A DNA stretch of 45,386 bases, from positions 1 to 45,386 of the forward strand of contig NZ_JABEKS010000005.1 in the NCBI RefSeq assembly GCF_012985205.1. Reading direction: 5' to 3'. The DNA comes from Planctomonas sp. JC2975 (GTDB lineage Bacteria; Actinomycetota; Actinomycetes; Actinomycetales; Microbacteriaceae). Every line of letters begins with the position of its first letter. Positions within the stretch are counted from its first letter, which is position 1. A program made the position numbers and the translations under genes. A model generated the notes under the pieces. It was not told the origin of the DNA, ran no database searches, and worked only from the letters and a program-made list of their open reading frames with translations. Below are positions 22,138 through 43,097 of this stretch, piece after piece.

Positions 22138-22419
22138 TCACTGGCAGCTTTCGCACTGCAGAAGGTCCATCGGGTCCACCGGCACGGCGTACTGCGCGTC
22201 CGAGTCCCGATAGTGACGCTCCCCCGGCTGGTCGTTTCGTGCGTGTGCAGCCATCCACATGTCGGCGGCCGCCGGCTCCCCCATCGCATACAGCAGCCCG
22301 TACAGCGCATCGATCTCTTCGCAGCTCATCGCCGTCCCGATGTAGTCCGCCATCTCCTGGCGTGCCCACTGGCCGGTGAAGGTCAAAACCGCGTTGCTGT
22401 CGGTGATCAGAGTGCTCAT
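22138..22419 (-). CDS. Small protein with SCQ-type Cys tail
   Basis: A 93-residue protein with a helical body (WARQEMADYIGTAMSCEEID, ALYGLLYAMGEPAAADMWMA) and the C-terminal tail YAVPVDPMDLLQCESCQ. The tail is almost the same as that of the unrelated 30-residue peptide at 40959-41051 (YVVPVDPMDELGCDSCQ). AAGGGGAAC precedes the ATG. It is followed closely by the coiled-coil gene. The shared tail suggests a common signal, binding or processing site. No known family recognised. Confidence 0.72.
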   Translation of the reverse strand: MSTLITDSNAVLTFTGQWARQEMADYIGTAMSCEEIDALYGLLYAMGEPAAADMWMAAHARNDQPGERHYRDSDAQYAVPVDPMDLLQCESCQ

Positions 22420-40888: not shown

Positions 40889-40958
40889 CCCTCTCGATCC
40901 GCAATTCGCGCTGCTTATCGGGGATGCCCCGACAGGTGAGCTGCAGGGAGGTAGAGCA

Positions 40959-41051
40959 ATGAATTGGAACCCTGATCTGGCCGAGCTGCTGGGGGAGTAC
41001 GTCGTGCCGGTCGATCCGATGGACGAGCTCGGCTGCGATTCCTGCCAGTAG
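40959..41051 (+). CDS. 30-residue peptide with SCQ-type Cys tail
   Basis: Reads MNWNPDLAELLGE followed by YVVPVDPMDELGCDSCQ and TAG. GGGAGG lies 6 bp before the ATG. Its last 17 residues match the end of the otherwise different 93-residue protein at 22138-22419 at 14 of 17 positions. It is preceded by a strong hairpin leader. A ribosomally made, modified peptide, a C-terminal targeting signal or a metal-binding tag are all possible; no known class fits exactly. Confidence 0.7.
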   Translation: MNWNPDLAELLGEYVVPVDPMDELGCDSCQ

Positions 41052-41096
41052 CCGGCGCCGTCGCCGCGCCACGGTGTGCGGGTTACGCTGTGCCGC

Positions 41097-41813
41097 GTGT
41101 GCGGGCGTTTCGCGATGGGGAAAGAGACCAACGAGTCGATCACCGAGTTCATCCAGTCCACGGGCCGGAAACCGGCCGAGTGGTCCTGGGACTGGGAAGA
41201 CCGCTACAACATCAAGCCCACTGAGGACATCGCAGTAATCATCGACTCCGCCCGCGATCGTGAGCTGCGTGTGGCGGCCGCCCGGTGGTCGCTGGTGCCG
41301 CCGTGGTCGGAGACGTTGAAGATGAAGTACCCGACGTTCAACGCCCGCAGCGAGGACATCCTGTCGAAGTCGACCTGGCGCAAACCCGTCCAATCGCACC
41401 GCTGCATCGTGCCGGCGACGGCGTACTACGAATGGACCGGGGAGAAGGGCTCCAAGATCCCGCACTCGTTCTCCCGTCCCGAGGGCGGCGTGCTCGGCTT
41501 CGCCGGCCTCTACTCCTGGTGGCTCGACAAAACCGTGCCCGAGAACGACGACACCCGCTGGCACCTGACCGCGACGATCCTCACCTCGGACGCGATCCCG
41601 AACCTCGCCGGCATCCACGACCGAGCACCAGTGATCCTCCCTGAGACGCACTGGCAGCACTGGATCGACCCGTCCATCGTCGGAGACCAGACCCTAGTCA
41701 ACGACGCCGTAGCGGCCGGGGTGGCGCAAGCCTCGACATTGCGAATCGATACCGTGGCCCCGTTTGGGATCAACGCTGAGGGACCTCAATTACTCACCCG
41801 CATAGAACGTTGA
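41097..41813 (+). CDS. SRAP (HMCES/YedK) domain protein
   Basis: A 238-residue SOS response-associated peptidase family protein that cross-links to abasic sites in single-stranded DNA. GTG at 41097 chosen because it places the catalytic Cys at position 2 (CGRFAMG), required after Met removal. Other active-site parts: YNIKPTEDIAVI (Asn), FNARSEDI, HRCIVPATAYYEWTG (Glu), and IHDRAPVIL (His). A -10-like TACGCT lies about 8 bp upstream with no Shine-Dalgarno, suggesting a leaderless message. On a conjugative plasmid it may protect single-stranded DNA during transfer. Confidence 0.9.
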   Translation: MCGRFAMGKETNESITEFIQSTGRKPAEWSWDWEDRYNIKPTEDIAVIIDSARDRELRVAAARWSLVPPWSETLKMKYPTFNARSEDILSKSTWRKPVQSHRCIVPATAYYEWTGEKGSKIPHSFSRPEGGVLGFAGLYSWWLDKTVPENDDTRWHLTATILTSDAIPNLAGIHDRAPVILPETHWQHWIDPSIVGDQTLVNDAVAAGVAQASTLRIDTVAPFGINAEGPQLLTRIER

Positions 41814-42410: not shown

Positions 42411-43097
42411 ATGACGCCGTATCCAGAGGCCCCGGTCCTGGTCGATCCGCCTGCCGAGTTGTTCCGCGTCGAGCGGCGGGATCCGCCGCTGCGCTACTCC
42501 CGGATTAGGGCCGAGGATGCAGCGAACGATCGTGGCGGGAACAGGTTCGACGTGCCTGGGGGAGGGGTCCTCTACGCTGCGACGACCGCGCAGGGTGCAC
42601 TTGCCGAGACCACCGCCAGTTTTCGTCCCAGCGCATCGATCCTGGCCCGTATGGCCGCGGCTGGCGCGGATCCGGCCGAACTCACCGGCCCGTCGCTGGA
42701 TGCATCCTGGCGTGCCAGCCGTGTCATCCGTACCCTCCACGTGCGCGAGTCTCTTCCCTTCGTCGACATCGAGGCCCCCGTCACACACACGTACCTGACT
42801 AGGCATGCCTCGAATGTCCTGCTGGGTCAGGGTGTTCAGAACCTGGACGTCGCGACGGTGCTCGGACCCTCGAGGCTCCTAACTCGCGGTCTTGCTACAT
42901 GGCTCTATCAGGCGCGTGATAGTTCGGGGTACCCGATGTACGGCGGAATCCGTTACCTCTCCCGCCTCAACACCGCCTTCGAGTGCTGGGCAATCTTCGA
43001 GGGAGCGACCAGCGAGGTCACCGATGAACGGCGGATCACGATCGATGACCCGGATCTCCGCGCCATCGCATCCGAATTCAGCATCTCGCTCGTGTAA
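42411..43097 (+). CDS. RES-domain toxin (NAD-degrading)
   Basis: A 228-residue RES-family protein, the toxin of the pair. Family features: LFRVERRDPPLRYSRIR, GGNRFDVPGGGVLYAATT (Arg and Tyr of the active site), GALAETTASF (catalytic Glu), and the C-terminal GGIRYLSRLNTAFECWAIFE (Ser/Asn near the active site). RES toxins consume NAD+ (MbcT is an NAD+ phosphorylase). The ATG has no Shine-Dalgarno; translation may depend on the short leader frame upstream. Confidence 0.88.
   Translation: MTPYPEAPVLVDPPAELFRVERRDPPLRYSRIRAEDAANDRGGNRFDVPGGGVLYAATTAQGALAETTASFRPSASILARMAAAGADPAELTGPSLDASWRASRVIRTLHVRESLPFVDIEAPVTHTYLTRHASNVLLGQGVQNLDVATVLGPSRLLTRGLATWLYQARDSSGYPMYGGIRYLSRLNTAFECWAIFEGATSEVTDERRITIDDPDLRAIASEFSISLV

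Follow-up and report, generated by a model that had tools for sequence, protein, structure and literature searches.

The cysteine tail shared by two small Planctomonas proteins is very probably a detached C-terminus of class I ribonucleotide reductase

The 45,386-base stretch of Planctomonas sp. JC2975 analyzed here (the window, contig C5 of a 4.36 Mb genome) encodes a 30-residue peptide and a 93-residue protein, 18.8 kb apart, which share a tail that ends in C-x-S-C-Q-stop and so places a cysteine pair near the C-terminus of each. This tail very probably represents the redox-active C-terminus of NrdA, the large subunit of class I ribonucleotide reductase (RNR), detached as a mini-protein that would reduce the NrdA active-site disulfide in trans, with mobile copies supplying or hijacking the RNR of the host. 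The features concerned are as follows, with the basis for each in brackets.

40946..40951, + strand: GGGAGG, resembling a ribosome-binding site, its end 7 nucleotides 5' of the ATG of the 30-residue gene (sequence)
40959..41051, + strand: 30-residue gene, a putative and nearly pure detached RNR tail, MNWNPDLAELLGEYVVPVDPMDELGCDSCQ (open reading frame translation and tail profile)
41013..41048, + strand: tail core DPMDELGCDSCQ of the 30-residue gene, with the C-x-x-C pair (pattern and profile)
22138..22419, - strand: 93-residue protein ending YAVPVDPMDLLQCESCQ, whose phage-type body (phrog_1178, residues 6-74) leads into the putative RNR tail (translation and PHROG match)
22141..22176, - strand: tail core DPMDLLQCESCQ of the 93-residue protein, with the C-x-x-C pair (pattern and profile)

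The pattern DPMDxLxCxSCQ is matched twice in the window and never in 100 dinucleotide shuffles, which rules out chance. An earlier note on this DNA had reported that 14 of the last 17 residues agree; the tail is indeed shared but the count is 13 of 17, and the further statement that the remainder of the two proteins differs is borne out by the PHROG match, which only the 93-residue protein has. At the DNA level the two tails are identical at 35 of 48 nucleotides, and since they differ at the other 13 and use serine codons of different families (TCC versus AGC), they do not stem from a fresh duplication and their conservation is at the protein level. The 30-residue peptide scores 46.9 bits (E 2.2e-11) with the tail profile, of which this same tail forms one row, and has no match in PHROGs, NCBIfam, or Pfam; zinc-finger matches of two of its relatives, far below the cut-off, were dismissed as chance. 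The separate peptides have the consensus xYxVPxDPMDxLQC[DE]SCQ and occur as mini-proteins of about 22-31 residues or as tails on other small bodies, and the 30-residue peptide is nearly all tail, just as the earlier note had described it.

That such peptides are probably real gene products is suggested by their variation. The proline two residues before DPMD, which lies outside the search pattern, is invariant in the 108 distinct viral tails listed and is encoded by all four of its codons (37, 26, 24, and 21 times), and because it is kept across all four codons, selection appears to act at the protein level and the window's 30-residue frame is probably a genuine gene. At 83 of 117 genome loci the 90 nucleotides upstream contain a start codon with a Shine-Dalgarno-like motif in the frame of the tail, versus 3 and 4 in the other frames; the contrast is weaker at the viral loci (35 of 115 versus 2 and 18). 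A role as a leader peptide was rejected, the neighboring genes being variable and the amino acids conserved.

The first pointer to RNR was a 33-residue plasmid tail peptide (L125:4001-4102) that carries the database name 'ribonucleotide-diphosphate reductase subunit beta' and is misnamed, as it is too short for a beta subunit. The Planctomonas genome itself has six tail-profile matches, two in the window, one of the 93-residue type on contig C3 (G000:C3:2819-2875, a profile match), one on C4, and two on C1. One of the C1 copies, the 31-residue MDNGTQTTTQYVGEYFVPEDPMDAFQCESCQ, lies exactly between the genes nrdA, whose product is tail-less, and nrdB of a class I RNR; with nrdB following nrdA in the operon, the enzyme is not of the NrdB-less class II. 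The other C1 copy, MSAAPEPEAELVDGYLVPVDPAEEMQCESCQ (L405, G000:C1:2893000-2899500), has genes for a phage-type integrase and a DUF2637 protein in its vicinity and is probably part of an integrated element.

In sister families of the same order the tail is fused to NrdA. Among 59 relatives, two from other families (G044 and G057) encode NrdAs of about 70% identity that carry the same tail in frame and end in ..VVGGVACPVDPMEALQCESCQ and ..DDATCPVDPQERLQCEACQ, respectively. Both are rows of the tail profile A3, which was made from 22 tails, and therefore match it by construction. Over 297 genomes of the order A3 matched 29, namely the Planctomonas genome itself, 27 with in-frame NrdA fusions, and G647 with a weak non-tail match, while its five matches among 396 genomes of the phylum were the Planctomonas genome, a fused NrdA in G269, and three weak partial matches. 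The latter three, which are outside the family (G258, G324, and G334), and G647 were judged on checking not to be tails. Residues C256, N468, C470, E472, C485, Y785, and Y786 are invariant in 32 full-length NrdAs, 19 with the CxxCQ end and 13 without it, and by analogy with Escherichia coli NrdA we take them to be the active-site cysteine pair, the radical cysteine motif (N-L-C-T-E), and the radical-transfer tyrosine pair. Judged from its sequence, tail-less NrdA is otherwise catalytically complete and the tail alone is missing. The closest solved relative in both sequence and fold is NrdA of Pseudomonas aeruginosa (5im3), for which the fold comparison extended to residue 797 and excluded the tail. 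A tree of the NrdA core needs two changes between the fused and split states, with a single change in 64% of the bootstrap trees, and detachment may thus have had one origin, which the tree neither shows nor excludes.

Detached tails also occur together with tail-less NrdA. Tail-less NrdA was found in 16 of 36 genomes of the host family, all 16 of which have detached tail genes, and class Ib NrdE with its own C-V-S-C end was found in 20, none of which has a tail gene (Fisher probability 1.4e-10, with relatedness ignored). In this count G013, where the frame of nrdA appears to be disturbed at its end (the run-on frame lacks CxxCQ), was scored as tail-less, G026 was taken from L258, and G047 (a fragment) and G051 (no NrdA found) were left unclassified. 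Pattern scans, which are non-random samples, provided at least 120 viral stretches from IMG/VR and at least 120 loci from named genomes, the titles of the latter being mostly those of Microbacteriaceae genera or of Micrococcales/Actinomycetota, with two Acidobacteria and one Cellulomonadaceae. The 120 genome loci listed fall into 46 that lie between an upstream nrdA and a downstream nrdB, 3 close to the end of their stretch with just one of these genes, 46 at which a MaoC-type dehydratase is matched within 4 kb (together with MurB at 43), and 25 in neither setting. At the 47 listed loci where nrdA is directly upstream of the tail, a stop precedes the tail in all 47 and cysteine is absent from the last 50 residues of every NrdA. 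The tail thus appears not to be part of the NrdA polypeptide, and the separate genes would represent a detached variant and not an ordinary tail. Sixteen genomes that were reached by way of non-operon tails contain 15 NrdAs of this clade (none in one assembly) and all 15 are tail-less; one of these genomes is G013, and two from Leifsonia aquatica also have the class Ib enzyme.

Two genomes separate the tail from nrdA altogether. G019, which has 927,303 bases and is presumably Tropheryma whipplei, encodes a single RNR large subunit that is tail-less, with nothing tail-like after its nrdA; its one tail gene is some 33 kb distant, flanked by MaoC-type genes and murB. In Naasia lichenicola no tail is present between nrdA and nrdB, and its tails are found at the MaoC/MurB locus and on an NrdH-like protein encoded about 950 kb from nrdA. 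With no tail at nrdA in either genome, the tail must act in trans, provided that these RNRs work. The NrdH-like protein has a counterpart in Schumannella:

L558:217-522: NrdH-like protein with tail, Naasia lichenicola, 101 residues, end APVDPEDGLDCDSCQ
L199:2443-2739: NrdH-like protein with tail, Schumannella assembly, 98 residues, end VPVDPMDELYCESCQ

The bodies of these proteins match NrdH chains in the PDB (E 1.5e-9 for Naasia and 3.1e-10 for Schumannella) and the Pfam glutaredoxin family with E of only 0.0089 and 0.14, and of the CxxC site of NrdH one cysteine is left in the Naasia body and none in that of Schumannella. NrdH is the classic reductant of RNR, and for this reason a redoxin scaffold whose own cysteine pair appears to be replaced by an RNR tail fits well with the proposed role. 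The resemblance to NrdH-redoxin is limited to these two tails, 2 of 309 distinct 40-residue ends in a simple motif screen; the tailed bodies lack the cysteine pair of the redoxin and all other tails are not on redoxins.

The assignment of the tail to NrdA is based on its homology to the fused tails, its co-occurrence with tail-less NrdA, the selection on the peptide, and the NrdH-like fusions. In the mechanism that we propose, each turnover would leave the two active-site cysteines of NrdA joined as a disulfide, the peptide would dock by means of its VPxDPMD part, and its CxxC would reduce the disulfide by exchange and depart oxidized, to be reduced again by an external reductant such as thioredoxin or NrdH. 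The window copies would be extra, plasmid-borne tails serving the chromosomal NrdA, and the 93-residue protein would reach RNR by its tail.

Several observations weigh against this assignment. Both the expression of the window copies and their link to RNR are presumed from the family only. The fused tails mostly have CPxDP[MQ]E versus VPxDPMD in the detached ones and are not identical to them, and in AlphaFold models the fused tail has a pLDDT of about 53-62 (28-41 in the linker), its position being too uncertain for a docking site to be named. The NCBIfam NrdH models match the two NrdH-like bodies with E 1.6e-8 and 1.4e-9, far below the NCBIfam cut-offs. The solitary tail copy near the MaoC and MurB genes is at a location for which there is no evident reason. 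Finally, at the operon loci the tail is in one (-1) frame relative to nrdA in 41 of 47 cases, and the frame of the tail is open back past the nrdA stop in 41 of 47. These last two figures are what might be expected if programmed frameshifting at the junction, or bypass of the stop there, gave NrdA its tail, with the peptide genes elsewhere as side products. Such a scheme is very unlikely, however, as the frame bias results largely from overlaps of the tail start with the nrdA stop (22 of 47 junctions being of the TGATG or TAATG type and 8 more having RTGA, 6 ATGA and 2 GTGA), which are a usual sign of translational coupling and suggest both coupling and a matched dosage. Moreover, no shared slippery sequence was seen at the junctions inspected (by eye only), a stop lies in between in 6 of 47, other frames are used in 6 of 47, and nrdA is altogether without an adjacent tail in both G019 and Naasia lichenicola.

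The MaoC-MurB copy, which is kept near MaoC-type dehydratase genes and murB across the family (46 loci among those listed, and L407 in G019), is relevant to a further explanation, namely that the tail is a small peptide with a general thiol or metal-binding function, acting, for example, with SRAP or other redox enzymes and having no relation to RNR. This second conserved chromosomal setting would be in keeping with such a role, as would the SRAP gene that adjoins the window copy (listed below), but the explanation is highly improbable given the in-frame fusions to NrdA in sister families, the co-occurrence with tail-less NrdA, and the NrdH-like fusions, and no neighbor was seen in common among chromosomes, plasmids, and phages. 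No tRNA, tmRNA, or other RNA gene is common to the solitary chromosomal tail loci (18 loci; 10 loci).

The search for further tails and the listing of their neighbors that the earlier note had suggested revealed many in plasmids, phages, and chromosomes. In the IMG/VR matches listed (at least 120) a stop directly follows CxxCQ in 118, and many are short frames that start 20-40 residues upstream. Twelve of the 58 upstream viral genes scanned (of 114) are of the terminase large subunit family and 10 of the 39 downstream genes scanned (of 109) are of the portal family, such that terL-tail-portal appears to be a common phage setting. These neighbors, and nrdA/nrdB or MaoC/MurB on chromosomes, bear on the proposal of the earlier note that the tail is a portable type IV secretion signal or the precursor of a ribosomally synthesized and post-translationally modified peptide (RiPP). 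The tail is portable, being a conserved C-terminus seen on plasmids, phages, chromosomes, and several bodies. Yet it is common in phages (118 viral pattern matches listed) and is present in the chromosomal nrd operon, its C-terminal position and residues match those of RNR tails, and no recurring RiPP maturation gene was seen among the same viral genes or the ten window proteins, although no dedicated RiPP search was made. Both proposals are therefore the most improbable of those considered. The guess of a disulfide module, made in the same note, agrees with the homology to the RNR redox tail, although its identity with the end of NrdA was missed.

A match to nrdA or nrdB (tblastn with the genes of the Planctomonas genome) is present in 3 of the 118 viral stretches listed, which are parts of contigs, and absent from 115. 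This would suit an alternative in which the tails of plasmids and phages act as decoys or regulators: by competing with the host's tail peptide for NrdA, or by recruiting to RNR a fused body such as phrog_1178, they would slow or redirect the synthesis of deoxyribonucleoside triphosphates (dNTPs). It would also explain tails on several different bodies and the many copies per genome (6 in the Planctomonas genome, 11 tail-profile matches in Leifsonia sp. TF02-11). This alternative is unlikely, albeit deserving of consideration. The mobile copies retain the cysteine pair and terminal glutamine, a weak argument as these letters are set by the search pattern, and phages generally profit from more dNTP. 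In addition, of 517 viral NrdA relatives found and 80 kept, the C-terminus was examined in the three with the greatest similarity, and all three are tail-less with a separate tail gene upstream, directly before nrdA in one virus and with a frame of 315-321 residues in between in the other two (one of them LAGLIDADG-like).

The plasmids, including the window, carry one or two tails. In a plasmid search (limit E 10), 18 of the 22 matching records were from Clavibacter or Leifsonia, and in a phage search four of the five were from the Clavibacter phages CMP1 and CN1A, where the match is unannotated. The Leifsonia plasmid NZ_CP043643 has homologs of both window proteins, a 30-residue peptide of 63% identity and a tailed, full-length homolog of the 93-residue protein of 51.6% identity. 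Plasmid pCI2 encodes one short and one long tail protein, and eight contigs have two tail copies 17.7-36.3 kb apart, similar to the window.

The detached tail resembles the ordinary class I NrdA tail in having CxxC at the extreme C-terminus, in its homology to the fused tails of sister families, and in a partner NrdA with its catalytic residues, but it differs in being a gene of its own of about 22-31 residues, which is often multicopy and also on plasmids and phages. In phage Aeh1 a class I NrdA is split into separate genes by a homing endonuclease; the large subunit is likewise in separate genes, but the split is within the catalytic protein and is not known to involve a free tail. Action in trans has a precedent in the split class II enzyme of P. 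aeruginosa, where disulfide exchange for NrdJa is carried out by a separate NrdJb that is required in vivo (PMC4520616). There too the C-terminal redox cysteines are on a separate polypeptide, by experiment in that system and from sequence here, but that enzyme is adenosylcobalamin-dependent and encoded by two consecutive genes, whereas a bare, dispersed, and mobile tail would serve a class I enzyme here. In addition, NrdJb constitutes an entire subunit, for which a folded domain is predicted (PMC9669993). What would be new is an RNR redox tail in trans for class I and its presence on phages and plasmids, the class I tail and split class II RNR being already known. A literature search, with subscription papers and preprints outside its scope, found neither a detached class I tail nor its phage and plasmid spread described, a text search for the tail motif gave nothing relevant, and the accessible parts of PMC9531940, PMC9669993, PMC4009431, PMC5819950, PMC4520616, and PMC4390871 do not describe one.

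There is about an even chance that the wider picture is as follows: an essential part of RNR has become a free, mobile mini-gene, among the smallest metabolic genes known, the host family depends on a tail of 20-30 residues in trans, and phages and plasmids bring tails, alone or as a handle on other proteins (in two chromosomal cases on a reductant scaffold of the NrdH type), so as to commandeer or increase dNTP synthesis in the host. A free tail peptide would make the reduction step separable, with affinity, choice of reductant, and transfer in trans all measurable using a synthetic peptide. It would also represent an overlooked class of mini-genes, which in the records examined are unannotated, 'hypothetical', or misnamed, and by which phages and plasmids may control the dNTP supply of the host.

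Some additional observations concern the viral copies and the 93-residue body. On one viral contig (L054:245-943) the tail gene lies between thyX (PF02511) and nrdB, in a nucleotide-metabolism cluster, and a viral nrdA of 1120 codons (L058:9955-13317) probably has an intein inserted in it (PF14890, E 5.7e-8, slightly short of the cut-off). A frame of about 315 residues that is found soon after the tail gene on three viral contigs is perhaps a homing endonuclease or intein relative, being LAGLIDADG-like in one of the three. The mycobacteriophage Airmid protein gp74 (L428:1474-1716), the one of 19 matching records of the phrog_1178 type that was compared in detail, is a relative of the body of the 93-residue protein (phrog_1178, mycobacteriophage gp74-type) but has no DPMD tail and ends in HCRCEECNAG, a CxCxxC of its own. 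The viral frames and the remaining window genes are:

L478:6182-7129, L479:6091-7056, and L054:1890-2840: frame of about 315 residues, start ..PETLxLTxxGYxxIxSL..
41076..41813, + strand: SRAP-domain protein (PF02586, E 1.7e-52), start 24 nucleotides past the 30-residue gene
42411-43097: RES-domain protein (PF08808)

The SRAP gene is perhaps co-transcribed with the 30-residue gene, although the data do not imply a functional link, and the RES-domain protein is possibly the toxin of a RES/Xre toxin-antitoxin pair.
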